Source: Clostridia bacterium (lineage in GTDB: Bacteria > Bacillota > Clostridia > Christensenellales > CAG-138). From it: a stretch of 41,613 bases of DNA. The stretch is taken from NCBI GenBank assembly GCA_017525875.1, contig JAFXSG010000002.1, positions 1 through 41,613 of the forward strand, in the 5' to 3' direction. Both the position numbers and the translations under genes were made by a program. Under the pieces are notes generated by a model. That model worked only from the letters and a program-made list of their open reading frames with translations, was not told where the DNA came from and did no database searches. Below are positions 2,976 through 40,770 of the stretch, one piece after another (within the stretch, counting starts at the first letter, position 1; every line of letters starts with the position of its first letter).

Positions 2976-3479
2976 TCACTGGTCCGTGTCTTGTGGGTCG
3001 TTTCGCTTTTTCAGCCGTTGCCCGCGGTTCTGCTTTTCGGAATCGAAGACAGCCACCGCCAGGTCGGTCAGCTCCGGATCCCACTTTTCACCGGTTTTCT
3101 GCACTTCCGCCCACGGACAGAGCGAGGCATAGTCTTCATCAAGCGCGATATCGTATGCACCGCTTGTGGAGCTCACGCTTTTATACAGGTGCCGACCTGT
3201 ATGGATCAGTTCATGGGCGTCTCTTCTTTCCATGCCTTTCGTCTTGAGCTTATTGAATATCTCTTCGTTGATCTCATAGAGATCGTAATGGCCCGCCCAA
3301 AAGGTTTCGGCGGTATAAAGCTTTCTGTCGCTGTCAAAGCAAGCTTTCCATCCCGGTCCGGTCTTGAAACGGAGCGCACCTTCCGTGTATTCTGCGGGAA
3401 GCCTGATCCGTTTCTCTTTCTTCTTTTTTCCGGATTCTTTTGACATGGTTTTCAGATAAGCCGGTATTTTTCTCTCCAT
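2976..3479 (-). CDS. Orphan protein, paralogue of the gene at 7637-8041
   Basis: A 167-aa protein of unknown function; no signal peptide or membrane segment. It aligns along most of its length with the product at 7637-8041. Shared blocks include GPGW/GCGW, KLYTAE/GLYTAE, HDLYEI-type, TGRHLY, LCPWAE and WD-x-x-LTD, ending in SEK-x-NR-x-QR. The N-terminal extension is Lys-rich (KKKKEKR, residues 19-25) and absent from the paralogue. The start is uncertain: ATG 3479 has only GGGAG 13 bases upstream, and ATG 3446 has no ribosome site. The 5' end overlaps, in another frame, a GNAT-like remnant (3452-3544), so a recombination event may have supplied the present start. It is the last gene of the minus-strand cassette-like array. 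Confidence 0.6.
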   Translation of the reverse strand: MERKIPAYLKTMSKESGKKKKEKRIRLPAEYTEGALRFKTGPGWKACFDSDRKLYTAETFWAGHYDLYEINEEIFNKLKTKGMERRDAHELIHTGRHLYKSVSSTSGAYDIALDEDYASLCPWAEVQKTGEKWDPELTDLAVAVFDSEKQNRGQRLKKRNDPQDTDQ

Positions 3480-3544
3480 TCGTCGATCATTTCTCCCAAT
3501 TGATACTCATAAGCCTTTGTGAGCTTTATCAGCTTCAGATTCAT
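3452..3544 (-). pseudogene. 5' remnant of a GNAT-type acetyltransferase
   Basis: A 30-codon frame, MNLKLIKLTKAYEYQL then GEMIDEW..., ends at TGA 3452. This beginning resembles the N-termini of GNAT N-acetyltransferases (LxKLTxxYxxQLxxMxDEW). It starts 9 bases after AGGGGGAA and has the junction motif ATCCCGATTC just upstream, as the intact genes of the array do. The catalytic acetyl-CoA fold is missing, so this is a truncated gene. Identification rests on a short N-terminal match. Confidence 0.5.
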
Positions 3545-3561
3545 ACTGAGTTCCCCCTTGC

Positions 3562-3597
3562 AGATCCCGATTCAGTGATATCCCGACAAACGGGAAT
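3562..3597. repeat. Array junction motif, arms A and B
   Basis: Both arms of the recurrent junction are present. AGATCCCGATTC (3562-3573) lies just upstream of the ribosome site of the 3544 remnant. TCCCGACAAACGGGAATTT (3581-3599) runs into the stop codon of the phosphorylase gene. The second arm is itself a hairpin (TCCCG/CGGGA). Confidence 0.6.
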
Positions 3598-4392
3598 TTA
3601 TTCAGCTGCAAGTGTAACGATCATATCTGGAAGCACCACATTTCTCCCGTAATCGTATTGTTGTTGTTCTTCTTCTGTGCGACCCACCAGGGCAGCGCCA
3701 GACGCTGAATTATCAGATACTACAAGTAAAGCAATACCTGGCAGTTCAAACAGATCCGTCATCAAATAGAACGAACTTGTTTCCATTTCAATGAGATCCG
3801 TATCAAATGACTTGATCTCATCTAAATGTGTATATTCCAACGCAATAGACGGAGTGCAAAAAACACTGGCCTTGCGGAGATAATAGCCTTTCTTCTTTCC
3901 AATCTCTATTACCTTATCAACATACTTCATGTCTGGGACAACTTCTGTAAACAGCATGCTCTCCTGAATGGAGTCTTTCATAAGATATGAATCAGCATAG
4001 CTTCCTGATATTGAATAAGATGGTGTACAGACATCACCCAGTTTGAAGGTTTCTTTCAGGCCTCCGACCGCTCCAATAAAAATCATTCTTTTGAAGGACA
4101 ACTCCGCACATATAGCCATATGGTCGATCAAATTGCCTGCCGAAGATCCAATCTTGATCCAGGCAATGTTCAATCCATCTTTTTCAACCAGATAACCTGC
4201 TATGTAGGCTCCTTCTTTTAATGTTGTAACTTTACAGGTTTTTTCCATATGAAGTTTATACGGTGTAAAACTCGGGGCAATCACGAGTGCATCATAGACA
4301 ACATCCTCACTTAAACCAAAAGCCTGCGCCGCCATATGTTCCGTGTTATATCTGTGAAATGAATCCACGATTCTTTTTAAGGATTCTTTCAT
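3598..4392 (-). CDS. Nucleoside-phosphorylase-like protein
   Basis: A 264-aa cytoplasmic protein resembling the PNP/UDP phosphorylase superfamily, which splits nucleosides with phosphate. Features seen: a Gly-rich block IKIGSSAGNLIDHMAI, IFIGAVGGLKETFKLGDV typical of the phosphate/ribose-binding region, and DTDLIEMETSSFYLM matching the family's EMEx(S/T) ribose-binding motif. A final block LLVVSDNSASG corresponds to the VSD base-binding segment. The substrate cannot be told. The start ATG 4392 is chosen for GGAGG five bases upstream. The gene is notably AT-rich (hand count 22 of 60 G+C at 3901-3960) beside a GC-rich neighbour (39 of 60 at 4741-4800), which suggests separate origins. Confidence 0.75.
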   Translation of the reverse strand: MKESLKRIVDSFHRYNTEHMAAQAFGLSEDVVYDALVIAPSFTPYKLHMEKTCKVTTLKEGAYIAGYLVEKDGLNIAWIKIGSSAGNLIDHMAICAELSFKRMIFIGAVGGLKETFKLGDVCTPSYSISGSYADSYLMKDSIQESMLFTEVVPDMKYVDKVIEIGKKKGYYLRKASVFCTPSIALEYTHLDEIKSFDTDLIEMETSSFYLMTDLFELPGIALLVVSDNSASGAALVGRTEEEQQQYDYGRNVVLPDMIVTLAAE

Positions 4393-4402
4393 ACTGACCT
4401 CC

Positions 4403-4416
4403 ACAAATCTCGATTT
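4403..4416. repeat. Array junction motif, arm A
   Basis: ACAAATCTCGATTT sits directly between the GGAGG of the phosphorylase gene and the stop codon of the next gene upstream (stop at 4415). This is the shortest junction of the array; the palindrome AAATC-TC-GATTT overlaps the stop codon. Confidence 0.6.
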
Positions 4417-5119
4417 ATTCGATCCGCGTCCTTCCCGCTGCGGAGAATGGGCACCTGTTTCCTATGCATTGATTGTTGCGCGAGGAATAGCGGCATGTCA
4501 CCTTCGGTTTTTCCATATCGATCCCGAAATGTTCGTTAACGAAATCGACTGCGGCAAGGATCGAAAGGAAAGAATCACGCTTGCAGCAGCGCGGGCCGCC
4601 GACTGCGCCGATCGCCCCAAGCGCTTTTGAAGTCATGAGGTTCGCAAGCCCCCATGAATCGGTTGAAAGAGGCGTCGCTCCTGCGATTATCGAAACGAAC
4701 ATCCCGGTGCTGACTCCCGCTCCGCAAGCGCCCCAGAAGCCGCAGGCTCCGCCGGGGACTTTCTTCCCGCGACTCATCATCTCGGCAAGCGCGGAAGGAA
4801 GGTCTATCTCCCCGCCCGCATTCTTATAGGCCGTCAAAAGCGCACAGCCGACCATAACGTGGTGTTCAGGCCCGTGCATGTGACAGAAGGGCATATCCAT
4901 CATCTTCTCGACAATTGCGACGGGATCCTTCGAGGCTTCCTGCATGCACAGCCCGATAATGGAATCCATGCCCATCGTATGGCACTCGCTGCATACGTAG
5001 TGCCCGTTGACGCACCGCGTCTTGCTGCTCTCCTTTTTATGGCAGATCGCGCACTCCATAAGCTCGTCCCTTTCGAGGTATTCGAGCGGCGCTTTGCAGA
5101 TCAAGCATTCTTCTTTCAT
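4415..5119 (-). CDS. Cysteine-rich DUF5714-like protein
   Basis: A 234-aa protein of unknown function. Several CxxC pairs form likely zinc or iron-sulfur sites: CLICKAPL (residues 5-8), CAICHKK (22-25) and CVNGHYVCSECH (35-46). The central part is small-residue rich with GACGFWGACGAG and GGPRCC; the C-terminus has CRYSSRNNQCIGNRCPF. This pattern matches the uncharacterized DUF5714 family as I remember it; the assignment is by motif only. The start ATG 5119 has AGGGG 9 bases upstream; an in-frame ATG at 5152 lacks a ribosome site. It is GC-rich, unlike the phosphorylase gene 22 bases downstream. Confidence 0.7.
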   Translation of the reverse strand: MKEECLICKAPLEYLERDELMECAICHKKESSKTRCVNGHYVCSECHTMGMDSIIGLCMQEASKDPVAIVEKMMDMPFCHMHGPEHHVMVGCALLTAYKNAGGEIDLPSALAEMMSRGKKVPGGACGFWGACGAGVSTGMFVSIIAGATPLSTDSWGLANLMTSKALGAIGAVGGPRCCKRDSFLSILAAVDFVNEHFGIDMEKPKVTCRYSSRNNQCIGNRCPFSAAGRTRIE

Positions 5120-5168
5120 AGAGGTATCCCCTTCGGTCAGCGATTTGCGCATTTTGTTTTGTAGATCA

Positions 5169-5187
5169 TCCCGACAAACGGGAATTT
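5169..5187. repeat. Array junction motif, arm B
   Basis: TCCCGACAAACGGGAATTT, identical over all 19 bases to 3581-3599, immediately before the stop codon (5189-5191) of the next gene. Arm A is absent or unrecognizable at this junction. Confidence 0.65.
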
Positions 5188-5188
5188 G

Positions 5189-5542
5189 TCAATCTGCAAG
5201 ATAAAAAGATGGTACCAAATCATGGGCGATGTACTTGTCGCCCAGAATAAGGCCATGCTCTCTAGTTTCATGAATATAAGCCTTTATATCTGCAAGGGAT
5301 TTTTCTTCAAATCCATCTTCATGAAACCAGGTCTCAGAATACATCCATTCCCCGTCATCTGGATCGGAATAACCACCGTATCCATGCTGAAAACTCTTTT
5401 TACAGTGCTCCCACCAAAGGATGGACGAAACGCGACCACCTTCTTCATAGATAAAATCCAGGAACGCTTCCCAATCTTTGAAGAGGTATTCTGAGCAGAA
5501 AGAATGATCATTTACATATTTCTGTATTCTTTCATTTATCAT
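5189..5542 (-). CDS. Orphan acidic protein of the array
   Basis: A 117-aa soluble protein without a recognizable family. It is acidic and rich in aromatic residues (WWEHCKKSFQHGYGGY, GEWMYSETWFHEDGFEE). No signal peptide, membrane segment or Cys motif is visible. The start ATG 5542 is chosen for GAGG six bases upstream; an upstream in-frame GTG overlaps that ribosome site. It has the size and isolation typical of cassette-borne unknown genes. Confidence 0.62.
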   Translation of the reverse strand: MINERIQKYVNDHSFCSEYLFKDWEAFLDFIYEEGGRVSSILWWEHCKKSFQHGYGGYSDPDDGEWMYSETWFHEDGFEEKSLADIKAYIHETREHGLILGDKYIAHDLVPSFYLAD

Positions 5543-5552
5543 TGTTTTCCTC

Positions 5553-5590
5553 ACAAATCCCGAGTTGTCGAGATCCCTAAAAACTGAAAT
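5553..5590. repeat. Array junction motif, degenerate
   Basis: Arm A is ACAAATCCCGAGTT (5553-5566), next to the GAGG of the downstream gene. A weaker arm-B-like stretch (GATCCCT...CTGAAATTT) ends at the stop codon of the GNAT gene at 5591. Confidence 0.5.
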
Positions 5591-6085
5591 TTATAAACCA
5601 AATACAATATCGTCTCCATCGAGTTCTGGTAATAGACAGAACCCCAGCGATTGATACAAAAGCTGTGCTTTTCTGTTGTCCTTTTCCGCTGCAAGTTTGA
5701 TCGGCTTGTCAGGATTTGCTGCTTTCAGAAGCCGAACAGCTGCTTCGGCGGCGCTTTTTCCATACCCTTTTCCTTGATGGCTTTTGTCAATATAAAAACT
5801 CCAAGTATAAGCATCGCCTTCGCCAAGCCATTTGCAAAGATTGATGAATCCGATCGGCGTCATTTGTTCGTCGTATATGATACAGGGATAATTGTCTTCT
5901 CGGAATAGATATGCCCTTCCAATAGAATACCATGCAGGGTTAACCAAATCTTTTTGCTTGTCGTCAAGTTGGCAATCATAGGCGGCATAGATCAAATCGG
6001 ACTCCGTTTTGAGCGGTCGAATAGAAACATGTGTATTCGACCACAGATCATTTCCGACCGTTCCTAAGTCTGTTCTTACTCCCAT
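5591..6085 (-). CDS. GNAT-family N-acetyltransferase
   Basis: A 164-aa soluble acetyl-CoA-dependent N-acyltransferase. Residues about 25-75 contain the early strand/helix region, and PIGFINLCKWL is beta-4. Motif A, the pyrophosphate-binding loop, is HQGKGYGKSAAEAAVRLL (Q/R-x-x-G-x-G/A form). NRKAQLLYQSLGF is the motif B helix-strand typical of the family. The substrate is unknown. ATG 6085 has GGAGGAG only 3-6 bases upstream. It is the first gene after the promoter at 6118-6146, so it leads the second half of the array. Confidence 0.85.
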   Translation of the reverse strand: MGVRTDLGTVGNDLWSNTHVSIRPLKTESDLIYAAYDCQLDDKQKDLVNPAWYSIGRAYLFREDNYPCIIYDEQMTPIGFINLCKWLGEGDAYTWSFYIDKSHQGKGYGKSAAEAAVRLLKAANPDKPIKLAAEKDNRKAQLLYQSLGFCLLPELDGDDIVFGL

Positions 6086-6094
6086 AACTCCTCC

Positions 6095-6115
6095 ACAAAT
6101 GTCGATTTATCGGGA
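6095..6115. repeat. Array junction motif, arm A next to a promoter
   Basis: ACAAATGTCGATTT (6095-6108) followed by ATCGGGA (6109-6115). Here the motif lies between the promoter -10 box (6118-6123) and the ribosome site, so it would be in the 5' leader of the mRNA. Confidence 0.55.
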
Positions 6116-6117
6116 TA

Positions 6118-6146
6118 AGTTTACCATATCCGCGGATCCGATTCAA
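6118..6146 (-). promoter_or_regulatory. Conserved array promoter, copy 2
   Basis: On the minus strand TTGAAT (6146-6141), 17 bases, then TAAACT (6123-6118) with extended -10 TGG. The spacer end GCGGATATGG and the TTAT that follows are shared with the promoters at 9328-9356 and 14694-14722, well beyond the -35/-10 boxes. Confidence 0.75.
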
Positions 6147-6161
6147 CCGGGCACGGAAAAG

Positions 6162-6184
6162 AAAAAGAGCCGCGCGGGCGGCTC
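6162..6184 (-). terminator. Terminator after the first VanZ gene
   Basis: Stem GAGCCGC (6167-6173) / GCGGCTC (6178-6184) with a 4-base loop. Read on the minus strand it is followed by TTTTTCTTTT. It separates the upstream half of the array from the promoter at 6118-6146. Confidence 0.85.
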
Positions 6185-6197
6185 GAAAAACGGAAAT

Positions 6198-6740
6198 TCA
6201 GCGTCTGCTCTTGATCAGTTTAAGCACGAGTTTATAAACCAGACAGCCGATCGCAACACCGAGCGTGTTAAGGAGCAGGTCGTCGACGTCCGAAGTCCTT
6301 TCAAAGAATGGAAGCTGGATCATCTCTATGCATAGCGAGATCAACGCGCCGACGCCTATGACCTTCCAAAAAGAATTCAGCTTTTTATAGATGATCGGAA
6401 GAATGACGCCGGTCGGGATGAAAATCGCCGCATTTCCTATTACGTTGAGAAGCAGCTCTTTTTTGCTGTCATACTCCAAAAGGTGCACGAAAGGAATCAG
6501 GTTGAGCTTGAAAGGAAAGACCGCGGAGGGATCGAACCTCAGCGGCTGCACCTTCCCGTTAACGCGGGACATCGGAAAGAAAACAAACCGGATGATCACC
6601 GCAAGATTAACGAACATCAGCAGAAGGACGGCTTCACGCTTCCAATCTATCCTCCGTTTTCGTATCCAGACAACGATCCTGCATGTAAGCCAGATAAGTG
6701 CAAAAAGCAATTCCGCCTGAAGCAATGTTATCTCTGTCAT
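6198..6740 (-). CDS. VanZ-family membrane protein
   Basis: A 180-aa integral membrane protein with about four to five hydrophobic segments: residues 6-22, 33-55, about 92-118, about 124-142 and 155-172. The VanZ-like signature is seen: FKLNLIPF after the second segment, ELLLNVIGNAAIFIPTG, IEMIQLPFFERTSDVDDLLLNTLG. In VanZ-like proteins this last acidic block (SDVDDLLLNTLG) is the most conserved. The role of most family members is unknown; the namesake gives low-level teicoplanin resistance. ATG 6740 is chosen for GGAGGGG four bases upstream. A second VanZ gene lies at 10425. Confidence 0.85.
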   Translation of the reverse strand: MTEITLLQAELLFALIWLTCRIVVWIRKRRIDWKREAVLLLMFVNLAVIIRFVFFPMSRVNGKVQPLRFDPSAVFPFKLNLIPFVHLLEYDSKKELLLNVIGNAAIFIPTGVILPIIYKKLNSFWKVIGVGALISLCIEMIQLPFFERTSDVDDLLLNTLGVAIGCLVYKLVLKLIKSRR

Positions 6741-6750
6741 GTTCCCCTCC

Positions 6751-6803
6751 GCAAATACCAATGCGCTCGTTTGTCTTATCATCCCTCCAGATAAACGGGA
6801 AAT
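6751..6803. repeat. Array junction motif, weak copy
   Basis: GCAAATACC (6751-6759) beside the ribosome site corresponds to arm A. ATAAACGGGAAAT (6791-6803) before the stop codon of the methyltransferase gene corresponds to the right half of arm B. The left half of arm B is lost. Confidence 0.4.
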
Positions 6804-6805
6804 GA

Positions 6806-7561
6806 TCACTTCTTTGCAACCACGATCGGCTGATAGAATCCTGTTTCCTCCGGTAATTTCCATAATACCTGCCGACATCCATATGAGAGCAGCAGGTTCG
6901 TCAATTCTTCTCTGCGAACAGCCCTGTACTCGCACACAAACTTACTGATCTGAAGGTTCTCCTCATCGTCTATAATGTACTGTGTAAGCTGATAGTTGTC
7001 TCCGTTCCAGACCCACGTTTGGAAAGAAACACGCTGTCCCTTATTTGTTTTGTGGATATAAGGCGGGGAATACGGCGGCTTTGCAGCGAGAAGGCTGTCA
7101 TAATCACGGATGCTGGCAACAAAGATACCGTCCGGTCTGATTTGACCGGTGATGCTTCTCACAGCCGATTCCAGAGCTTCGCTTGTAAGCATGTGCGGAA
7201 GCGCATTGTCCATAGCGATCACTATGTCAAACTTTTCCGAAAAGGCGTCGGACAGGGCGCGGAAATCAGCATGCCTGAAACGTATATTCACGCCGTTTTT
7301 CTCAGCACGCATAGTTGCCTCGGCAAGTTCTCCGTCACTGATATCCGATGCAGTCACTGAATAACCGAGCGCGGCCAGTCCGATTGCCTGCGTTCCGATC
7401 CCACATGCACAGTCAAGAATCTGGGCTGTCTTATCGAATCCGCTGTCGACAAAGAGCTTATTCAGAATCATAGCCTGTTCGTGTGTTGTGGCCTGCCAAT
7501 CGAGAAACAGCTTATCATACTGAGTTGCAAAATTATCATAGAAGGTCTGTATAATATCCAT
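6806..7561 (-). CDS. Class I SAM-dependent methyltransferase
   Basis: A 251-aa soluble methyltransferase. Motif I is ILDCACGIGTQAIGLAALG (about residues 48-66), motif II ends in the acidic VTASDISDGEL, and the adenine-binding motif is RFRHADFRAL. Motif IV is FDIVIAMDNALPHML, followed by the RPDGIFVASIRDYD motif. The fold and length fit class I enzymes acting on small molecules; the substrate is not evident. ATG 7561 has GGGAG 10 bases upstream. It is a cassette-like gene with array junctions on both sides. Confidence 0.88.
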   Translation of the reverse strand: MDIIQTFYDNFATQYDKLFLDWQATTHEQAMILNKLFVDSGFDKTAQILDCACGIGTQAIGLAALGYSVTASDISDGELAEATMRAEKNGVNIRFRHADFRALSDAFSEKFDIVIAMDNALPHMLTSEALESAVRSITGQIRPDGIFVASIRDYDSLLAAKPPYSPPYIHKTNKGQRVSFQTWVWNGDNYQLTQYIIDDEENLQISKFVCEYRAVRREELTNLLLSYGCRQVLWKLPEETGFYQPIVVAKK

Positions 7562-7576
7562 ACACCGGTCACTCCC

Positions 7577-7629
7577 ATAAATCCCGTTTTGTGCAATTCT
7601 CCCTCCGCCGTCCCGGCAAGCGGGAAGTT
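7577..7629. repeat. Array junction motif, arms A and B
   Basis: ATAAATCCCGTTTT (7577-7590) lies just beyond the ribosome site of the methyltransferase gene. TCCCGGCAAGCGGGAAGTT (7611-7629) precedes the stop codon of the gene at 7637. The hairpin TCCCG/CGGGA is kept although the loop changed from ACAAA to GCAAG, a compensated pattern that suggests the fold matters. Confidence 0.6.
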
Positions 7630-7636
7630 GTTAAAT

Positions 7637-8041
7637 TCATTGTTTCTTATCCAACTTGTTTTGCCGTTCTGCTCTCTTCGCTCGGCGTTGATCTCTGTTC
7701 TTTTTCTCAGATTCAAATATTTCGACAGCAGCATCGGTTAAGTCTTCATCCCATATCTCCCCGGATACCACAGTTTCCGCCCATGGACATAGCATTTTAT
7801 AATCCGAGTCAAGAATGACCGTATATGGCAAACCACAGCGATCGTTGACCGTCATATATAAATGTCTTCCTGTTCGGATAAGAGCTTTCGTTCCTTCGGT
7901 ATCTGAATCATCAGCCAGATCGTATACCTCTTCTGTTATCTCATACAGATCATGGTTGGTCCCGGCACCGATCTCGGCCGTATAAAGACCCGTTTCAGGA
8001 TCATAACAACATCTCCATCCACACCCACTTTTGAATTCCAT
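7637..8041 (-). CDS. Orphan protein, paralogue of the gene at 2976-3479
   Basis: A 134-aa soluble protein of unknown function. Blocks shared with the other copy are GCGWRCCYD, GLYTAE, HDLYEI, RTGRHLY, LCPWAE, GEIWDEDLTD-A-V and SEKKNRDQR. Two conserved Cys (CC in GWRCCY) are not kept in the paralogue (GWKACF). The C-terminus is strongly basic (RRAKRAERQNKLDKKQ), which could bind nucleic acid. ATG 8041 is chosen because GAGG lies five bases upstream and the similarity to the paralogue begins there; an upstream extension in the same frame overlaps the neighbouring gene. Confidence 0.68.
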   Translation of the reverse strand: MEFKSGCGWRCCYDPETGLYTAEIGAGTNHDLYEITEEVYDLADDSDTEGTKALIRTGRHLYMTVNDRCGLPYTVILDSDYKMLCPWAETVVSGEIWDEDLTDAAVEIFESEKKNRDQRRAKRAERQNKLDKKQ

Positions 8042-8051
8042 CTTTACCTCA

Positions 8052-8065
8052 CTAAATCCCGATTT
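8052..8065. repeat. Array junction motif, arm A
   Basis: CTAAATCCCGATTT between the GAGG of the gene starting at 8041 and the stop codon (8079-8081) of the gene upstream. It contains the palindrome AAATC-CC-GATTT. Confidence 0.55.
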
Positions 8066-8078
8066 CTCAAGATCGCCT

Positions 8079-8732
8079 TCAAAGCTCGTCAGGCGTCGTG
8101 AAGTCAAGAAAACAGCCGCCCTTGCTCTTTGCCTTTTCCATAAACGCGGCAAGAACGCCGTTTGCGATGATAGTCTTCGTGCACCAGCACTTTTCCGCCA
8201 GTTCATCGCTTGTCATGGAAAGGTAGAAATCATCGGGGATATCAAAGCTGACTTCTCCGCCGCCGGTTTGGCCCGGCGCGCTTCCCTGGCACCTGCAATC
8301 CTGATGGATATAGGCGCTGCCGTCCTCCCGGAACCGTACGGTGACAGTATCGTTGCCATGTTCGAAATAGTCGCCCACGCTGGCCAGCTCCACGTCCAGA
8401 TGGAGAAAGCGGAGTCGGTATTTCCGCGCCAGGCGCTCCGCCGCCGTATCGTAAACGCCGCGCAGGATGACCTTGTTCTTTCGAAACAGTTCGGCCGTCT
8501 TTTCGGTCATGTGAAGGTCGCACTCGGGATTGTTGATCCAGACCGAGTTTATGGTCGGCAGCAGTTCAAAGAGATCGGGCTCGACTTCCCTTATCTCCTC
8601 GCCCAGGCCCAGCGCCACGCCCCGCGGATCGCACCTCAGCTCCTCATCCCAGCGGGCTATGTTTTCTTTTCTCAAAATCTCTCCGCCAAAAGCGTCAAAA
8701 CCGTTTTTTCTGTATCCGAGGCTTACGATCAT
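8079..8732 (-). CDS. Unknown soluble protein
   Basis: A 217-aa protein I do not recognize. The first half (IREVEPDLFELLPTINSVWI) reads like a cap of a leucine-rich repeat (LRR_5-like) domain. The rest has VRFREDGSAYIHQDCRCQG and a C-terminal segment with CWC and GGCFLDF. No signal peptide. ATG 8732 is chosen for AAGGAG seven bases upstream; an in-frame ATG at 8756 has none. GC-rich, with a 70-base gap to the lipoprotein gene upstream. Confidence 0.65.
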   Translation of the reverse strand: MIVSLGYRKNGFDAFGGEILRKENIARWDEELRCDPRGVALGLGEEIREVEPDLFELLPTINSVWINNPECDLHMTEKTAELFRKNKVILRGVYDTAAERLARKYRLRFLHLDVELASVGDYFEHGNDTVTVRFREDGSAYIHQDCRCQGSAPGQTGGGEVSFDIPDDFYLSMTSDELAEKCWCTKTIIANGVLAAFMEKAKSKGGCFLDFTTPDEL

Positions 8733-8802
8733 GAGCCGCTCCTTTCTTTGCTCCAAATGCTGTTTATTTTTGCTGACTTACGTTAGCGGTTCGATCCGCC
8801 GC

Positions 8803-9288
8803 TCAATGCCAAAGCTCATACCCGTAAGCTTCGATATATCCGGGTATCTCAATTTCTTTTCCGTTCGTATCCAGCGCGCGGAAGACGGAAGGCGTATTCA
8901 TCAGCCGGATCGTTTCGTCGTATTCAAGCAGGAAATTATTATCGGGATCCCCCGACAGGGTGTAGACCCGCCTGTCCTTGTTGCCGGGATCAACGACCGA
9001 AGAGCTGTTCTCGTCCTGAATGATGTATCCGATGCATTTCTCGGCATAGGTCGGCCGATAAGCGCTGCTGGTCGTGCCGTAGGGGACGTACAGCCTGCCG
9101 TTATACTCGATGGTCCCGAACAGCGCGCCGTCATGCTCGGCGTCTTCATAGGTCCCCATCCCGAACGCGATGGCGTCCGCAGGCAACGGCGGATACTTTT
9201 GCTTCGCGCATCCGCTCAGCGATAAAAGGAGAATCACAACGGCGATCATTGCCGCCAGCCGCTTTTTTGCGGAAACGTTGTTTTTCAT
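8803..9288 (-). CDS. Small orphan lipoprotein
   Basis: A 161-aa predicted lipoprotein. Residues 1-27 are a signal peptide (KNNVSAKKRLAAM, a hydrophobic core, lipobox SLSGC with Cys27). The exported part has beta-type strands (GTIEYNGRLYVPYG) and no family I recognize. ATG 9288 is chosen for AGGAG and GAGAGGG just upstream and because it starts the signal peptide. It is the first gene after the promoter at 9328-9356. Its leader holds a motif like array arm A (GATCCCGTATTT, 9307-9318). Confidence 0.72.
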   Translation of the reverse strand: MKNNVSAKKRLAAMIAVVILLLSLSGCAKQKYPPLPADAIAFGMGTYEDAEHDGALFGTIEYNGRLYVPYGTTSSAYRPTYAEKCIGYIIQDENSSSVVDPGNKDRRVYTLSGDPDNNFLLEYDETIRLMNTPSVFRALDTNGKEIEIPGYIEAYGYELWH

Positions 9289-15179: not shown

Positions 15180-15581
15180 TTACGAGAGCACAAGCTCCCG
15201 GATGACCTGTTCCTCGGCGCGGGCGCGGCAGGAATCCATCGCCTGCACCCAGCCGAACCAGTCGCGGACCTTGAGCTCCTCGGTCACGCCCTCGGCCTTT
15301 GCCAGCCGGTCGGTGATACGCTCGATCATCGCTGTTGCATCGTCGTTGACGGCCTTGAGGTGGTGCTCGAGCGCTCCGGTGTACAGCAGCTCAAGGAAAG
15401 CGTCCGTGTTATGTTCCCTGAGATACTTTTTGCGCATCCGGCCGAAGCGACCGACGTCGCCCACGGGCTCATCGGGAGCGCCGAGGCGCGGGTAGTAGTA
15501 ATCGCCTATGAGGTCATAGGTCAGTCCGTTTTCCTCGTCACGGATCGTGACGGGGAGTTCTCCTGTGATGGGTCGTTTCAT
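15180..15581 (-). CDS. tnpV: TnpV-family protein
   Basis: A 133-aa protein of the TnpV family found in clostridial mobilizable elements such as the Tn4451 group; its function is not established. It shows the family pattern ENGLTYDLIGDYYYPRL, a GRFGRMRKKYLREH block and a C-terminal helical region ending RARAEEQVIRELVLS. ATG 15581 has AAGGAG upstream. The homologue in element 2 (37386-37781) matches over the full length. It lies 16 bases after the stop of the TnpV-like gene. Confidence 0.85.
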   Translation of the reverse strand: MKRPITGELPVTIRDEENGLTYDLIGDYYYPRLGAPDEPVGDVGRFGRMRKKYLREHNTDAFLELLYTGALEHHLKAVNDDATAMIERITDRLAKAEGVTEELKVRDWFGWVQAMDSCRARAEEQVIRELVLS

Positions 15582-15597
15582 AACAGTCTCCTTCCGG

Positions 15598-16140
15598 TCA
15601 AGCGATCTCTTCCTGCCATTCGTGCAGCAGCTCCCCGGCGACCTGCTCGATCGCTCGTTCAAGGCATCTGTACCGGAACCTTGCCAGCACAACAACGTCC
15701 GTTTCGCCGCGCACCTCTTCTTTGTTCTCTTGCATCAGCTGCTCCGTGAGCGCGAGGGCCCGCTTGCAGCCTTTGGATTCTTCCGCGCCGATATCGAGCG
15801 GGAGGGTGCAGGTCGCGGCGAGCTTCGCGTACAGCGGGATGTTGTATCCGCGGAGAAAGTCGAGGCGCATGCGTCCGAACTTATGAAGGTCTTCGATGCC
15901 GAGCACGGCGGAGATCAGTTCGATCGGCGGGTCGATCGGCCTCATACCGGGCTCGAAGAACCTCTTGGGGAGCTTTGCGTGCTTTACGTCTTCCGCATAG
16001 TAGGGATCATAGCTGCCCTGTTCGAGGTTGAGCCGGTATTCGACGCCTTCAAACTGATCGTCGCGGATCGCGGCGGGCAGCGCGTCATAGTCGAGGGGGA
16101 CGGGGGAATAGGTAAGGTCGGTTTCGTCAATGTATGTCAT
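15598..16140 (-). CDS. Second, divergent TnpV-like protein
   Basis: A 180-aa soluble protein. The central block PPIELISAVLGIEDLHKFGRM, then R-x-DFLRGYNIPLYAKL, parallels the RMRKKYLREHN region of TnpV, and the C-terminal helices (RYRCLERAIEQVAGELL) parallel its RARAEEQV end. It therefore looks like a diverged TnpV with a longer N-terminus. ATG 16140 is chosen for AAAGGAG nine bases upstream; the start lies inside the last codons of the relaxase gene (14-base overlap), indicating translational coupling. Element 2 lacks this gene: there the relaxase gene overlaps tnpV directly. Confidence 0.72.
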   Translation of the reverse strand: MTYIDETDLTYSPVPLDYDALPAAIRDDQFEGVEYRLNLEQGSYDPYYAEDVKHAKLPKRFFEPGMRPIDPPIELISAVLGIEDLHKFGRMRLDFLRGYNIPLYAKLAATCTLPLDIGAEESKGCKRALALTEQLMQENKEEVRGETDVVVLARFRYRCLERAIEQVAGELLHEWQEEIA

Positions 16141-17311
16141 GTTGTGTCTCCTTTCGGTTTTTATTTTGTTCATTGGCTTTTTGTTGTTTCTCTCTCGCCT
16201 CCGCAACGAGGTCATCGACGTATTCGTCGCCGAACACCCGGCGGAGGAGAGCGTAGTCTCGGGTCTGTTTGTGTAGTTGGTCGTTCTTTTCTTCGAGCGA
16301 AGTCAGCCTCTTTTCCAGACGGCGGTTCTCGTTTTCGAGCTCCTCGTTCTCGCCGCGCAGCAGGGCGATCTTGTCCCACGCCTTAACGCAGGAGACGAGC
16401 ACCGCACGAACGAGATCCTTGAGCCGTTGCACGAGCGGGACGACGAACCGCTCTCTGTAGTTCTTTGCGCTCATAAGCTTCGGAGGTTCGGGGACCGCAT
16501 AATCCTCATCGCGGCTGAGCTTGTACTCGACACGGTCGATCTCCTCGCCGGCGGTATCCGCGCTTTCGAGGCGGTGCTGTACCTCGGAGAGCTCGCCCTG
16601 CTTTGCGGCAAGCTCGGCTTCGAGCGCGGCGAGCTCCTTCGCCCGCTCCTGCTTCTTGAAGTCGAGCACGGAGAGGTGCTTTTCGTGAGTGCCCTTCTGC
16701 TCCCACTCGATGCCGTAACGCTCCATCACGGCGGCGAGGGCGTGTTTCTCGGACTCCGCCCACTGCGCCCATTCGGTGTCGCCGCGCGTGCCTCCCGTGA
16801 AGCCCTGCGCGGCGAGCGCTTGCTTGAGGGAAACGCGGGTATCGAGGCCGCGCTTGCTCCCGGTCGTGAACGGGACGAAATCGATGTGGATATGCGGCGT
16901 CGCTTCGTCCATATGGATGTGAGCGGAGTACACGCGGAGGTTCGGATTGCGGGCGGTGAAGCCCTTGAAGTACTCGTCAAGCACTTCCCTTGCCAGCTCG
17001 CCGTTTTCCGTTCCCGAGGCCATATTGTCCATATCGCCGATCTGCAGTATGATCTCGTGGAACAGCTTTTCCTGATGGCTTCCCCGGATCTTCTCATAGT
17101 AATCGGGGATTATCCTGTCCCTGCGTTTCTGCTTTGCGTTGTACCGCTCAAGCGCTTTGTCGAAGAGTTCGTGATAAACCTTTTTGAGGGGTTCATCGAT
17201 GTAACTGATGTTGTATCGGGTGCGCTCTGCATTCACGTTTTCCGCTATGAATTTGCGGCTGTTGTGGCTGGCGGAGCCCTTCCCGATCATTGCGCATATT
17301 GTTCTTCTCAT
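16127..17311 (-). CDS. mobV: MobV-type relaxase (Mob/Pre family)
   Basis: A 394-aa relaxase that would nick the element's oriT and lead its transfer. The N-terminal Mob/Pre domain contains NISYIDEPL, a helix with VYHELFDKALERYNAKQKR and the metal-binding motif HIHMDEATPHIHIDF (His131, His133, His140, His142). The C-terminal half is a long helical/coiled-coil region (about 200-250 and 320-365: ENEELENENRRLEKRLTSLEE). ATG 17311 has no good ribosome site, as in element 2. It is almost identical to the element 2 relaxase over the first ~230 residues and diverges in the C-terminal half. Confidence 0.93.
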   Translation of the reverse strand: MRRTICAMIGKGSASHNSRKFIAENVNAERTRYNISYIDEPLKKVYHELFDKALERYNAKQKRRDRIIPDYYEKIRGSHQEKLFHEIILQIGDMDNMASGTENGELAREVLDEYFKGFTARNPNLRVYSAHIHMDEATPHIHIDFVPFTTGSKRGLDTRVSLKQALAAQGFTGGTRGDTEWAQWAESEKHALAAVMERYGIEWEQKGTHEKHLSVLDFKKQERAKELAALEAELAAKQGELSEVQHRLESADTAGEEIDRVEYKLSRDEDYAVPEPPKLMSAKNYRERFVVPLVQRLKDLVRAVLVSCVKAWDKIALLRGENEELENENRRLEKRLTSLEEKNDQLHKQTRDYALLRRVFGDEYVDDLVAEAREKQQKANEQNKNRKETQHDIH

Positions 17312-17327
17312 GAAATGTACCCGGCGG

Positions 17328-17507
17328 TTAATGCCTTTGTTACTTTCTGCGAAAGTAACGCAAAAGCACTTTTGTCAGTCTTCGCCCGCCAAAAGTGCTG
17401 TTGCGCCCTGCGGGGCCGGCCCTGCCCACCGAAGGAGCGGAGGGGAAGCACTCTGCCTCCGCTCCTTCTTGAATAACGGGTTCCTTCGATAAACTCACCT
17501 TATCGCC
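17328..17507. other. oriT-like region of element 1
   Basis: A 180-bp non-coding block directly upstream of the relaxase. It matches 38960-39139 at all but about four positions while the flanks differ. It contains three stems: GTTACTTT/AAAGTAAC (17339-17359), AGCACTTTTG/CAAAAGTGCT (17365-17399), and GGAGCGGAGG / CCTCCGCTCC further right. Position beside mobV and strong DNA conservation fit an origin of transfer; the nick site is not identified. Confidence 0.7.
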
Positions 17508-17529
17508 ATGGTCGGGTTTACCGTCACGC

Positions 17530-17664
17530 GTGACGATAAAATTAAGTTTATCGTCACGCGATTTTATCCTTATCACATAACGGTTTTTGGCACATTCGAC
17601 CCCACAGCGTGACGATAAAACATGCAGTACCGTATTTATCGTCACGACCGTCACTTATCGTCAC
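17530..17664. repeat. Iteron cluster of element 1 (GTGACGATAAA)
   Basis: Copies of GTGACGATAA(A), in both orientations, lie at 17530-17540, 17547-17557 (inverted), 17609-17619, 17635-17645 (inverted) and 17654-17664 (inverted, first base changed). The last copy overlaps the stop codon of the RepA-like gene. A palindrome CGTCACGCGTGACG spans 17522-17535. Such arrays next to a RepA-type ATPase suggest a replication origin or autoregulatory site. Confidence 0.75.
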
Positions 17665-18806
17665 GCCTGCGCAATGACGAGCCGGATAACACGCCCTTCA
17701 TGGGTGCGCTTCGAAGCGCAGAGCACGCCGTGCTCCGAATACAGCCTTGAAGCATTCACGTTGAGCTTTCTGGAAAGGTGGTTCGCGGGCAGCTCGCTCC
17801 CGATCCTTTCCGCAAGCTCCGTGGCAGTCCCTTCCCAGTACGGCGCGTCGGCATTCACCAGCGCGGCAACCACGTCGAGCAGGGGCTCGGGCGGGTCCTT
17901 CCACAGCTCGGTCTCCGTTTCGGTGAGGTCGAACGTGCAGCTGTCGTAGCGGAAGAGCAGCTTGAAGCGGAGATCCTGCTGATCGCGGCCGACGATGTCG
18001 AGCGAAGCCTCGGGGCTTGTCCGCTTCTCCTTGCGGAGCAGGAACGCGCCGTCGGCCGAACCGAGCAGGCCCGTCGTGCCGGAGATCGTTTCGAACTTGT
18101 CGTCCGCGTCCTGCTTGCGGGTATGGTGCACGATCAGGATCGCGACCGGCGCCGCGTCCGACAGCGCCTTGAGACCCGCGATGATGCGGTAGTCGTTCGC
18201 GTAGCTGTACTTGTCGCCGTCGTCGCCGCGCACCTTCTGCAGCGTGTCGATGATGATGAGCTTCGTGTCGCTGTGCGCCTGGATGAAGCCTTCGAGCTGC
18301 TTCATCAGGCCGTTCTCCATGCTCTTCGCGTGGGTCGCGAAGTGGAGGTTTTCGGCACAGTCGACGCCGAACATGCGGGAGAGGCGTTTCTGCAGCCTCG
18401 CGTATTCATCCTCGAGCGCAAGGTACAGCACCGAGCCCTTGCGGACGGGCATGCCCCAGAGCGGGGTGCCCGTCGCGATCGCGTAGCCGATCTGCATCAC
18501 GAGAAAGGAGTTGCCGATCTTCGGAGCGCCGGCAAGCAGGTAGGTACCCGGGCAGAGGAATCCGTCGATGATCGGGATCCTCGGCACGAAGACGGTGTCC
18601 ATAAGGTCGGGCATACTCACGGTCTCAAGATAGCGGGGATCGAGCCTGCGCGGATCGAATTCGATCTCGCGCATAATTTCTTCATCATCGCTATTGAAAA
18701 AATCCCCGATATCTGCTATACTGTTAACCGTGGTTAGCGGTGACTGCCCCGTATTTGCGCCAACAGATACATCCCGGGCAGTCATCTTTTTTTCATCTTG
18801 GCTCAT
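17661..18806 (-). CDS. RepA-like AAA ATPase with altered Walker A
   Basis: A 381-aa RecA-fold (AAA_25/RepA-type) helicase-like protein, expected to unwind DNA at the element's origin. The Walker A region is GAPKIGNSF: residue 99 is Asn (AAC, 18512-18510) where the sister protein in element 2 has Lys (GAPKIGKSF). The Walker B-type strand is KLIIIDTLQKV, and ILIVHHTRKQ and the GTTGLLGSADGAFLL sensor region are intact. The C-terminal ~90 residues look like a winged helix and differ most from the sister. ATG 18806 has AAAGGAGG upstream. Loss of the P-loop lysine usually abolishes ATP hydrolysis, so the protein may be inactive. Confidence 0.88.
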   Translation of the reverse strand: MSQDEKKMTARDVSVGANTGQSPLTTVNSIADIGDFFNSDDEEIMREIEFDPRRLDPRYLETVSMPDLMDTVFVPRIPIIDGFLCPGTYLLAGAPKIGNSFLVMQIGYAIATGTPLWGMPVRKGSVLYLALEDEYARLQKRLSRMFGVDCAENLHFATHAKSMENGLMKQLEGFIQAHSDTKLIIIDTLQKVRGDDGDKYSYANDYRIIAGLKALSDAAPVAILIVHHTRKQDADDKFETISGTTGLLGSADGAFLLRKEKRTSPEASLDIVGRDQQDLRFKLLFRYDSCTFDLTETETELWKDPPEPLLDVVAALVNADAPYWEGTATELAERIGSELPANHLSRKLNVNASRLYSEHGVLCASKRTHEGRVIRLVIAQA

Positions 18807-19127
18807 TCCTGCCCTCCTTTCGCATGCCGCGGAGCGTCACGGTCATGAGCCTGATAGTCTCAAGGAGCCCGGGTTCGACCGTGTCTCCGGCGGAGAGCCT
18901 GCGGAGCTCCGCGAGCACCTCGGCGTGGACGTCCTTCAGGGCCTTGTAGACCTGCGGATTGCCCACGACGGTGATTTCCCTTCCCATGCAGCGGCGGTAG
19001 CAAAACTCCTGCTTCGGAAGGCCGGAGATCGCCACCGCCCGGTCGAGCTCCGCCGCCTGTTCGGGCGAAACGCGGAAGACGACCGATTTGCAGCGGAAGC
19101 GGTTGTATTCGTCACGTTCTTTCGCAT
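18793..19127 (-). pseudogene. MobC-like gene with a broken start
   Basis: The frame encodes AKERDEYNRF, then FRVSPEQAAELDRAVAISGL, PKQEFCYRRC and GNPQVYKALKDV, homologous along its length to the intact 108-aa protein at 40441-40767 (ribbon-helix-helix/MobC-like relaxosome accessory). The only nearby ATG (19127-19125) is one base out of frame: the sequence is ATGCGAAAG where ATGGCGAAAG would give M-A-K-E-R. A one-base deletion therefore seems to have removed the start. Translation could still begin at an in-frame GTG (19035), giving 80 residues without the DNA-binding N-terminus. A sequencing error is the alternative. Confidence 0.7.
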
Positions 19128-19128
19128 A

Positions 19129-20202
19129 TCAGCCCACCTTCCTCGCTTCGTCCAGCTTGTCCGCCATTTCACCCTGGATCGACGGGAACATGTGCGCGTA
19201 GCGGTACGTGATGTCGATGCTCTCGTGTCCGACGCGGTTCGCGATCGCGACCGCCGAAAAGCCCATGTCGATCAGCAGCGAAACGTGGCTGTGCCTGAGG
19301 TCGTGGATGCGGATCTTCTTCACGCCGGCGGCCTTCGAGCCGCGCGCCATCTCGTGCATCAGAAAACTGCGCGTGACGATGAAGATGCGGTCGTCGGGGT
19401 GCAGGTCGTAGATCATCGTGATCAGGTCACGCATCTCGTCGCGGAGGAAACCGGGCATTTTGATCGTCCTGTTGCTCTTCCGCGTTTTCGGCGTGGTCAC
19501 GACGTCCTGCTTGCCGATCCGCTGATAGGTCTTGTTGACCGTGACGGTGCCCTTCTCAAGGTCGACGTCCTTCGCGGTCAGTGCGAGCAGCTCGCCCACG
19601 CGGAGGCCGCACCAGTAGAGCATCTCAAAGGCGTAGTAGGCGAGGGGCTTGTCCATGATCGCTTCGGCGAATTTGAGGTACTCTTCCTTCACCCAGAACT
19701 GCATCTCCCCGGCCTCCTTCTGCCCGATCGAGCCGACCCTAGACGCCGGATTGAACTTCAGGTTGTAGTGCTTTACGGCGTGATTGAGCAGCGCGCTCAG
19801 CTGGTTGTGGACGGTCTTGAGATAGGTCTGCGAGTACGGCTTGCCCCTGGCGTCCCGGTAGCTCAGCAGCTCGTTGTGCCAGCGCATGACGTCCTTTGTA
19901 CTGATGTCCCGCAGCTTTTTGTGCTCGAAGTAGGGCAGCAGCTTCGTGCGGATCAGATGATCCTTCGAAAGCCATGTGCTGAGCTTGAGTCTCGGGCGGA
20001 CGTCCTTTTCATAGAGGAGCACAAAGTCTCCGAAGGTCAGATCGGGATCCTCCCGTGATTCGAGCAGGAATTTGCGCTCCCACTCCACCGCGTCTCGTCT
20101 GGTCTTGAACCCGCGTTTGCATTTCGCTTTGTTAACGCCGGTCCAGTCGTTGTACCTGAACCAGACATACCAGGTACCGTTTTTGTCTTTATAAGCCGGC
20201 AT
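19129..20202 (-). CDS. int: Tyrosine recombinase (integrase) of element 1
   Basis: A 357-aa site-specific recombinase for integration and excision. The N-terminal AP2-like DNA-binding part (1-45, GTWYVWFRYNDW) and a SAM-like core-binding domain (about 55-150) precede the catalytic domain. Catalytic residues seen are Arg201 (CGLRVGELL), Lys239 (TPKTRKSNRT), His300 and Arg303 (HDLRHSH), His326 (VGHES) and the nucleophile Tyr335 (ITYRYAHMF). All are present. ATG 20202 follows GGAGG and comes one base after the Xis-like stop codon (TGA-T-ATG), implying coupled translation. About 60% similar by eye to the integrase at the right edge of the window. Confidence 0.95.
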   Translation of the reverse strand: MPAYKDKNGTWYVWFRYNDWTGVNKAKCKRGFKTRRDAVEWERKFLLESREDPDLTFGDFVLLYEKDVRPRLKLSTWLSKDHLIRTKLLPYFEHKKLRDISTKDVMRWHNELLSYRDARGKPYSQTYLKTVHNQLSALLNHAVKHYNLKFNPASRVGSIGQKEAGEMQFWVKEEYLKFAEAIMDKPLAYYAFEMLYWCGLRVGELLALTAKDVDLEKGTVTVNKTYQRIGKQDVVTTPKTRKSNRTIKMPGFLRDEMRDLITMIYDLHPDDRIFIVTRSFLMHEMARGSKAAGVKKIRIHDLRHSHVSLLIDMGFSAVAIANRVGHESIDITYRYAHMFPSIQGEMADKLDEARKVG

Positions 20203-20203
20203 A

Positions 20204-20404
20204 TCATTCTTCCTCCTGTTCTTCTTCCGGATCATAAAATCTTTCGTAGAAATACTTTCTGTTGACCCTCCTCGGGATGGTCATGTAACCCTTTTCTCTG
20301 AGCTCGTCGTTCAGATCACGGATGATCTTGGATCCGTAAGCGTCCGAGATGCTGAGCATCTTCGCGATCTCGTGGGCAGTGATAAAGCGTTTTTCGTCTT
20401 CCAT
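20204..20404 (-). CDS. xis: Excisionase-like HTH protein
   Basis: A 66-aa DNA-binding protein. Residues about 8-40 form a helix-turn-helix (FITAHEIAKMLSISDAYGSK, then IIRDLNDEL), followed by a wing-like basic part (IPRRVNRKYFYERF) and an acidic tail (DPEEEQEEE). Size and place just before int fit an Xis or a small element regulator. ATG 20404 has GGGAGGTG upstream. It is preceded by a 12-codon leader frame (20449-20487). Confidence 0.8.
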   Translation of the reverse strand: MEDEKRFITAHEIAKMLSISDAYGSKIIRDLNDELREKGYMTIPRRVNRKYFYERFYDPEEEQEEE

Positions 20405-37385: not shown

Positions 37386-37781
37386 TTACTCGAGGATCAA
37401 TTCTTGCAGAACTTGCTCTTCGGCTCTGGCGCGGCAGGAATTCACTGCCCGGATCCAGCCGAGCTGGTCGCGGGCCTTGAGGTCTTCGGTCACGCCCTCG
37501 GCGCGGGCGAGCTGAGCGGTGATGAGCTCGATCTGTTCCTTCGCCTCACGGTCAATGTCCATGAGGTGCTGTGTCAGGGTGCTTTCCATCAGCATCAGAG
37601 CGAAGGTGTCCGGTTGATGCTCCTTGAGGAACCGCTTACGCATGCGGCCATAGCGGCCGATGTCGCCTTCGGGCTCCTCGGGCAGTAAGAGGCGGGGGAA
37701 GTAGTAATCTCCGACGAGATCGTAGGTGAGGCCGTTGGTCTCGTCATAAACGGTTGCGGGCAGTTCAGTGTTGGTGTTCAT
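37386..37781 (-). CDS. tnpV: TnpV-family protein of element 2
   Basis: A 131-aa protein matching the element 1 TnpV along its length (ETNGLTYDLVGDYYFPRL, GRYGRMRKRFLKEHQ, SCRARAEEQVLQELILE). The N-terminus is slightly different (MNTNTELPATVYD). ATG 37781 has AAAGGAG eight bases upstream and lies inside the end of the relaxase gene (17-base overlap), so here TnpV takes the coupled position that the TnpV-like gene holds in element 1. Confidence 0.87.
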   Translation of the reverse strand: MNTNTELPATVYDETNGLTYDLVGDYYFPRLLLPEEPEGDIGRYGRMRKRFLKEHQPDTFALMLMESTLTQHLMDIDREAKEQIELITAQLARAEGVTEDLKARDQLGWIRAVNSCRARAEEQVLQELILE

Positions 37782-38943: not shown

Positions 38944-38959
38944 AATAATCACCCGGGGG

Positions 38960-39139
38960 TTAATGCCTTTGTTACTTTCTGCGAAAGTAACGCAAAAGCA
39001 CTTTCGTCAGTCTTCGCCCGCCAAAAGTGCTGTTGCGCCCTGCGGGGCCGGCCCTGCCCACCGAAGGAGCGGAGGGGAAGCACTCTGCCTCCGCCCCTTC
39101 TTGAATAACGGGCTTCTTCGATAAACTCACCTTATCGCC
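38960..39139. other. oriT-like region of element 2
   Basis: This 180-bp block is of the same length as, and almost identical to, 17328-17507, with about four substitutions. Two stems are perfect or nearly so: GTTACTTT/AAAGTAAC, and AGCACTTTCG with CAAAAGTGCT (one mismatch). The third stem has one mismatch. Divergence begins abruptly at its right border, where the iterons start. Confidence 0.7.
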
Positions 39140-39161
39140 TTTTGTGGGTTTACCGTCACGC

Positions 39162-39305
39162 GTGACGCTCAGGGATATTTTAGCGTCACGCAATTTTACC
39201 CATATATCATAAGGCATTTTTGAGGCCAAAGCCCCGCGCGTGACGCTCCGTGACGCTAAGTTTGATAGTATGCAAATCAGCGTCACGAGCGTCACTGAGC
39301 GTCAC
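39162..39305. repeat. Iteron cluster of element 2 (GTGACGCT)
   Basis: Seven copies of GTGACGCT or its complement: 39162-39169, 39182-39189 (inverted), 39240-39247, 39250-39257, and inverted at 39279-39286, 39288-39295 and 39298-39305. The last overlaps the stop codon of the RepA-like gene, exactly as in element 1, but the core is GTGACGCT rather than GTGACGATAAA. Confidence 0.75.
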
Positions 39306-40767: not shown

Positions 40768-40770
40768 AAT

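Follow-up and report, generated by a model that had tools for sequence, protein, structure and literature searches.

Integrons, in which head-to-tail single-gene modules are separated by a hairpin-forming element, are very rarely complete in Firmicutes: the IntegronFinder 2.0 report gives one complete integron and a few integrase-less integron arrays (CALINs) for the phylum (PMC9024848). Partial parallels are offered by two further groups, namely the mobilizable elements of the Tn4451/Tn4453 type, which encode TnpX and TnpV, and the multidrug-resistance islands of Campylobacter with their circular intermediates. Here, we analyse a 41,613-nucleotide stretch of DNA, termed the window (contig JAFXSG010000002.1, labelled C26, of the 2.49-Mb, 53-contig genome of a Clostridia bacterium, GCA_017525875.1), in which nine minus-strand genes are separated by copies of a 40-60-nt hairpin-like element. 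From sequence comparison, it seems to us a slightly better than even prospect that this region belongs to an integron-like gene-capture system, with a site of its own and a putative recombinase to match.

The likeness to integron arrays and CALINs takes in several features: there are head-to-tail single-gene modules, unrelated and GNAT-rich cargo, a hairpin-like element between one stop codon and the next start, exchange beside the 3' arm of that element, promoter-like entry sites and plasmid-borne cargo that includes resistance genes. Unlike integrons, however, the boxes are ACAAAT/ATTTGT and the core is AAATCG instead of GTT, homology breaks on both sides of the stem, and IntI was not found over its cut-off score in the bacterium's own family. 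The region also recalls Tn4451/Tn4453-type elements, in that tnpV lies within 5 kb of four places at which the element occurs and the corresponding genes of plasmid pCC14983A follow tnpX-tnpV; in that type, though, TnpX moves whole elements into a 2-bp target (PMC3158075), whereas in our case single genes appear to be exchanged at a hairpin. The Campylobacter islands likewise consist of clusters that vary gene by gene, and some island genes start at ACAAATCG|..TTTGTGGAGG, but those islands have so far been explained by insertion sequence (IS) elements together with homologous recombination at pcp (PMC10770853).

The array extends from 2976 to 8732 of the window, and its genes, all on the minus strand, are as follows:

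2976-3479, minus strand: module gene, no Pfam match; paralogue of 7637-8041
about 3452-3544: short remnant preceding the 2976-3479 gene, resembling a GNAT N-terminus (by eye)
3598-4392, minus strand: module gene, PNP_UDP_1 phosphorylase (Pfam E 3e-17)
4415-5119, minus strand: module gene, DUF5714 (Pfam E 4e-73)
5189-5542, minus strand: module gene, no Pfam match
5591-6085, minus strand: module gene, GNAT acetyltransferase (Pfam E 3.4e-14)
6198-6740, minus strand: module gene, VanZ-like (Pfam E 1.1e-26)
6806-7561, minus strand: module gene, methyltransferase (Pfam); a relative in genome G107 has other neighbours (81% over 643 bp)
7637-8041, minus strand: module gene, no Pfam match; paralogue of 2976-3479
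8079-8732, minus strand: first gene of the array, no Pfam match

A preliminary interpretation made from the letters alone (the sequence-only reading) had counted ten unrelated genes or remnants. Nine array genes, mostly unrelated, stand; two of them are paralogues (2976-3479 and 7637-8041; 48% over 130 aa), with the other families unrelated by Pfam, and the element is not seen at the tenth minus-strand gene (8803-9288), which probably lies outside the array. The same reading had noted jumps in G+C between neighbours. The direction is borne out, as the phosphorylase gene (G+C 0.405) adjoins the DUF5714 gene (0.560), but the contrast over whole genes is smaller than the local counts had suggested; across the nine genes, G+C ranges from 0.40 to 0.56 and third-position G+C (GC3) from 0.36 to 0.68.

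All eight junctions between these genes carry one or both of two short motifs, arms A and B, at a frequency far above chance. Arm B, minus-strand AAATTCCCGTTTGTCGGGA, occurs in identical form at 3581-3599 and 5169-5187 and with three mismatches at 7611-7629 (expected number in shuffled sequence 0.02; at least three copies in 0 of 100 shuffles), and weaker copies lie at 5574, 6181 and 6786. Arm A, AAATCGRGATTTGTGRAGG, is found with at most three mismatches at 4398, 5548, 6090 and 8047 (expected 0.03; at least four copies in 0 of 100 shuffles). The arm B sites first picked out by inspection (3581 and 5169, identical; 7611, diverged; degenerate copies at about 5571 and 6791) are borne out, and the arm A sites are likewise all present, those at 3562 and 7577 being more divergent than the other four. 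Both arms of the proposed two-arm motif are thus real, but they are better described as the halves of a single element per junction, ACAAATTCCCGTTTG...AAATCGGGATTTGT, inside which the points of exchange fall. On the minus strand, the order is stop codon, ACAAATTCCCGTTTGTCGGGAT, spacer, AAATCGGGATTTGT, ribosome site and next start. A covariance model (R1) was built from ten copies, three of them from the window (3552-3602, 5545-5595 and 7569-7632); these training copies score E 3e-12 to 4e-10 and are not independent, the sole independent match in the window being 5138-5190 (E 0.005). The junctions are:

3552-3602, minus strand: element a, separating the phosphorylase gene from the last module; exact arm B at 3581-3599 and arm A at 3562-3575; 59.6 bits with R1, training copy
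4398-4416, minus strand: element b, before the phosphorylase gene; arm A only, no mismatch to the consensus, arm B not recognised
5138-5190, minus strand: element c, before the DUF5714 gene; its arm B is exact, and its arm A, which ends in AAATCG, is degenerate; 24.2 bits with R1, E 0.005, not a training copy
5545-5595, minus strand: element d, separating the GNAT gene from the 5189-5542 gene; arm A with three mismatches; 56.5 bits with R1, training copy
6090-6202, minus strand: element e, a long form; arm B at 6181-6201, terminator-like hairpin, promoter-like TTGAAT-N17-TAAACT, TATCCCGATAAATCG and arm A; covariance model E 0.8
6738-6807, minus strand: element f, degenerate, separating the methyltransferase gene from the VanZ gene; arm B core with two mismatches at 6786-6801, arm A by eye
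7569-7632, minus strand: element g, separating the 7637-8041 gene from the methyltransferase gene; arm B with three mismatches; 51.4 bits with R1, training copy
8047-8075, minus strand: element h, after the 8079-8732 gene; arm A only, three mismatches to the consensus, arm B not recognised

Long forms like element e precede other genes in two genomes of the same family (G107, locus L084, and G009, locus L041). Collapsed junctions, which retain the outer boxes but have lost the inner hairpin, recur elsewhere by reading, and would be the expected outcome for palindromes that fold in cells; element b is perhaps such a form.

Eight aligned pairs of junctions reveal the points at which homology ends. 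In genomes of two genera (G072 and G091), the upstream gene and the element are common up to AAATCGGGA and then diverge; G036 and G107 share the end of a 336-aa gene plus the element up to AAATCG, after which they diverge; an upstream block present twice on contig C6 diverges between its copies directly after AAATCG; and the stretch common to C6 and G015 starts at AAATCG and continues as far as the contig end (99.3% identity over 148 bp), with different upstream halves. The breaks in the remaining pairs (G006/G011, C6/C17, G015/G036 and a second G072/G091 junction) lie at or inside arm B; G006 and G011 have the upstream gene in common and differ in the inner hairpin. There are two break points, one after about AAATCG and the other at about ACAAATTC; on folding, they would approximately face each other across the stem. 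In homologous stretches that reach an element (length at least 120 bp, identity at least 80%), there are 17 internal homology ends, and 9 of these fall no more than 10 nt from an element, compared with a mean of 0.93 and a maximum of 5 in 2000 shifted placements, although the selection rule favours an excess. In close relatives, homology runs through the elements (L077/L090, L153/L154 and L156/L173).

As in integrons, single-gene modules are gained, lost or swapped at the site. In one such replacement, G072 and G091 hold different genes between two conserved neighbours. The G091 gene, which encodes a 202-aa phosphoglycerate-mutase-like protein (by reading), recurs in genome RGIG5635 (95.3% over 700 bp), which is Oscillospiraceae by its record title and outside the list of 103 genomes of the family, such that a near-identical module is common to two families. 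Both of its ends lie in elements in G091; in RGIG5635, a collapsed junction marks the 3' end and the GGATTTG box alone the 5' end. Gene order is thus not fixed across these genomes, and the proposal that genes are exchanged at the element is well supported by the alignments.

Nor are the elements scattered over intergenic sites at random. Around 56 of 57 elements (locus L041 has no gene calls; genes were called with our own caller and near-duplicate arrays are included), the flanking gene lies on the element's strand in 44 of 45 cases upstream and 48 of 52 downstream, the median distance being 9 nt on the stop side and 9 nt on the start side. GNAT acetyltransferases, which are common integron cargo, account for 19 of 61 flanking proteins (drawn from 70 flanking genes), and the remainder are diverse and without common function. 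One family among them, a serine hydrolase (PF00144; 2 of the 61), recurs in several genomes with differing neighbours (L015 1-124, L084 1326-2702, L091 10561-11952, L092 1-1337 and L151 27-1385; assigned by reading and DNA identity). The positions of the elements could also suggest, as the sequence-only reading allowed in its second proposal of a spreading leader element, a conserved hairpin that serves in translation leaders or transcript processing and is simply carried along with the genes: arm A abuts the ribosome site, the long forms contain terminator-like and promoter-like sequence, and alternative hairpins can be drawn. We consider this highly improbable, however, as arm B sits at the stop codon of the upstream gene, the genes lack a common function, a scan of the window against Rfam gives no match at gathering score, and homology breaks at the element.

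We propose that mobile single-gene modules make up this region, which would function like an integron cassette array. Each module would span from about GGATTTGTGG, just before the ribosome site, to ACAAATTC, just after the stop codon, and the element between two modules, ACAAAT-T-CCCG-TTTG-(variable tip)-AAA-T-CGGG-ATTTGT, could form an imperfect single-strand hairpin of the kind known from attC; the ends of IS200/IS605 elements likewise form single-strand hairpins with an extrahelical T. Exchange would take place at the inner edge of the outer box, on the 3' side after about AAATCG and on the 5' side at about ACAAATTC. Modules would be gained, lost and replaced singly, entering at sites whose core is AAATCG and several of which follow promoter-like sequence. 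A dedicated site-specific recombinase acting on the folded strand is the most likely mechanism that we can infer; it would act in trans, and modules would move as free circles. The suggestion of recombination-based gene capture in the sequence-only reading is accordingly well supported as regards capture, with varying gene content and homology breaking at the element, and its mechanism is a putative one. In contig C6 (L015 143-251 and 1270-1378), we also note a 109-bp block, ending in TTGAAT-N17-TAGAAT plus CTCGATAAATCG, that occurs twice before different genes and may be a promoter-bearing entry site.

Alternatively, each gene could be a small unit of the transposon type, bounded by the short inverted repeats GGATTTGT ... 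ACAAATTC at its termini and mobilized by a transposase in trans, the inner hairpin being a mere linker. This would account for half-boxes that travel with the genes while the inner sequence varies (L089/L093 and L079/L086), and for collapsed junctions that retain the boxes only. It is improbable, in our view, as the inner sequence is conserved across families and neighbouring modules share one element rather than presenting two separate ends.

A number of observations weigh against capture by a dedicated recombinase at a folded site. Breaks occur on both sides of the site, where a simple integron predicts one side; some of them cannot be placed to the base; and the arrays are short. Folded as single DNA strands, seven hand-chosen complete copies give z values of -1.0 to -3.4, but the eight junctions of the window itself show no advantage in folding over shuffled sequence (z +0.3 to -1.5), and covariation is weak, the score in a model-fitted alignment being reached by 25 of 500 shuffles. 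Because modules moving as circles would put the arm after AAATCG in the next module, pairing is to be judged between the two ends of one module; own ends pair at 36 of 49 positions versus 29 of 47 for adjacent ends in the seven usable modules (four better, two worse and one tie; three multi-gene rows and one unscorable row of the 11 were excluded), against an all-against-all background of 69.7%. Moreover, the suggested companion of the motif, a tyrosine recombinase, is not tied to the arrays: only 1 of 112 Pfam matches in 20 element-bearing genomes lies within 5 kb, at 4.1 kb. This counts as weak evidence of absence, since at 24 of 40 array places the element is within 2 kb of a contig end and a gene beyond the break would escape the search. 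A motif scan of 26 loci for a linked tyrosine recombinase returned only mobile-element integrases, in the window and in L095; it is an insensitive scan, having missed the integrase at 19129-20235 of the window.

The main competing explanation dispenses with a dedicated enzyme and invokes homologous (RecA) or illegitimate recombination between dispersed copies of a conserved intergenic repeat of about 40 nt. Over 31-37 bp, the copy in G006 matches copies from six genomes outside its group at 100% identity (XPB1003, AC2028, Eubacterium pyruvativorans, RUG14036, UMB00020 and RUG13571), and identity of this length is enough for homologous exchange. The breaks on both sides of the element and the lack of a recombinase tied to the arrays fit as well, and circles in Campylobacter have been attributed to homologous recombination at pcp (PMC10770853). 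Nevertheless, the breaks cluster at two edges rather than being spread over the repeat, the entry sites share little beyond AAATCG behind promoter-like sequence, and the conservation of the element, its tip included, needs a cause; we regard repeat recombination as unlikely, while taking it seriously.

The absence of canonical attC and IntI, remarked on from the letters alone, holds on a wider scale. None of the 103 genomes of the family, which are drafts and in many cases incomplete, has an IntI (TIGR02249) over the cut-off, the best score being 64.7 against 265 bits (48.1 bits in the source genome), and attC boxes (RYYYAAC...GTTRRRY) are found at none of 48 elements, with 30 nt searched on each side. 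A canonical integron is rejected on these grounds. Architecture and cargo would equally suit an ordinary CALIN whose degenerate attC sites are served by a normal IntI, yet the same two counts, of boxes and of IntI, make that explanation barely credible. Sites with promoter-like sequence followed by AAATCG do exist, and no tyrosine recombinase adjoins them as far as contig ends allow the search to reach; the integron arrangement of Pc and attI beside intI is not seen. Since tested hallmarks such as IntI and attC boxes are lacking, we do not class the system as an integron, despite its working like a cassette array.

Serine-recombinase-like genes or pieces are seen near arrays, by reading and not by systematic search, on contig C17 (L014 5894-6514), in G072 (L079 7461-8126) and in E. 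pyruvativorans (L155 11953-12309), and serine recombinases are annotated in the plasmids pSRC6 and pCC14983A (tnpX-type in the latter). TnpV, for which a role in excision has been postulated from its likeness to lambda Xis (PMC3158075), is present in 47 copies in the 20 genomes; four element places lie within 5 kb of a copy, against about 0.3 expected from density by a hand estimate, and, as the proximity was noticed before counting, it is only a lead. The structure model of TnpV is confident (predicted local distance difference test 86). A broken tnpV piece with one internal stop (L014 8608-8748; C17:20611-20805) lies about 150 bp from the element at the end of the C17 array.

Covariance matches occur in 23 of the 103 genomes of the family at E 0.01 and in 14 at E 1e-4. 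In wider samples at E 1e-4, with the query genome included in each, there are 6 among 396 genomes of the order (five from the family itself), 6 among 391 of the class and 2 among 398 of the phylum, the second phylum match appearing to be a Selenomonas genome already found, at the same coordinates. The contrast between family and wider searches is partly built in, as they differ in threshold, filter and model (R1 for family and order, R2 for class and phylum), the wider filters were stricter, and the models were drawn mostly from the family. A pattern scan of named genomes gave 25 stretches, of which 19 were judged real and 6 chance by reading, in Lachnospiraceae, Eubacterium pyruvativorans i6, Oscillospiraceae, Ruminococcaceae, Pseudobutyrivibrio ruminis, Selenomonas ruminantium and the family itself. 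The Lachnospiraceae carriers XPB1003 and AC2028 are not labelled as metagenome-assembled genomes (MAGs). Rumen, caecum or duodenum is named in several record titles, and the named carrier species are rumen bacteria. A search of viral contigs gave no match, and a search of phages gave one partial match with no clear element in it.

Copies also occur on plasmids. In pSRC6 of S. ruminantium, the chloramphenicol acetyltransferase gene cat is flanked by one weak (17.5 bits) and one strong (46.3 bits) element; 13,027 bases of this plasmid are found unchanged in S. ruminantium ATCC 12561, and the MAG P. ruminis SIG312 has 237 bp comprising the end of cat and the strong element (99.6% identical). In pJXZ076-99K of Enterococcus faecalis, a kinase-like gene, located behind a GNAT gene, has an element on either side (40.5 and 31.2 bits), and in p5_70kb of E. 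faecium dfrF is followed in turn by an element (30.3 bits), an unknown gene, a second element (30.1 bits), a short open reading frame, a weak element (19.2 bits) and a reductase-family gene. Parts of the pJXZ076-99K stretch recur in 33 plasmid records including its own, 29 of them from Campylobacter, and the 3' part of the junction is present in 24 Campylobacter records. In pCC14983A, promoter-like sequence plus ACAAATCG, without arm B, lies between tnpV and the first such gene (by eye; model E 1.3). The one Staphylococcus plasmid match inspected contains no clear element.

A broader reading, which we advance tentatively and at somewhat less than an even chance, is that these copies belong to a separate gene-capture system of Firmicutes, with hairpin-ended cassettes and a non-IntI recombinase, whose home would be gut Clostridia and which would also have supplied genes, some conferring resistance (cat, dfrF and members of aminoglycoside clusters), to plasmids of Selenomonas, Enterococcus and Campylobacter. 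A prior description was not found at title and abstract level, in a search that did not take in bioRxiv preprints and most subscription papers. If the reading is correct, a cassette system with a different site would escape searches for attC and IntI, and it would explain why unrelated small genes, some for drug resistance, are lined up in gut bacteria and on plasmids of Gram-positive hosts.

Several further features lie near elements or elsewhere in the window. A MarR-like gene and two radical SAM genes are found near elements in E. pyruvativorans (L155 16639-18658, by reading) and in pSRC6 (L173 7994-10025, annotated 'radical SAM mobile pair'). Beside the array of the window is a 26-nt inverted repeat (2627-2652 and 2860-2885; 88% complementary, 207 nt apart), and C6, C17 and G107 contain similar stretches of 140-260 bp; this is perhaps a small mobile repeat. 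Two related blocks resembling mobilizable elements (15180-20404 and 37386-41613; DNA 72-88% identical), with TnpV, relaxase-like, ATPase-like and Tn916-type integrase genes by reading, stand on either side of a locus that encodes a regulator, an ABC transporter, a glycoside hydrolase and a sugar kinase (also by reading). Finally, at the contig end (1-760), there is an array resembling clustered regularly interspaced short palindromic repeats (CRISPR), with repeats of about 36 nt, GTTTGAGAGTAGTGTAAATCTATGGGGTACTCAAAC, spacers of about 30 nt and a degenerate last repeat.

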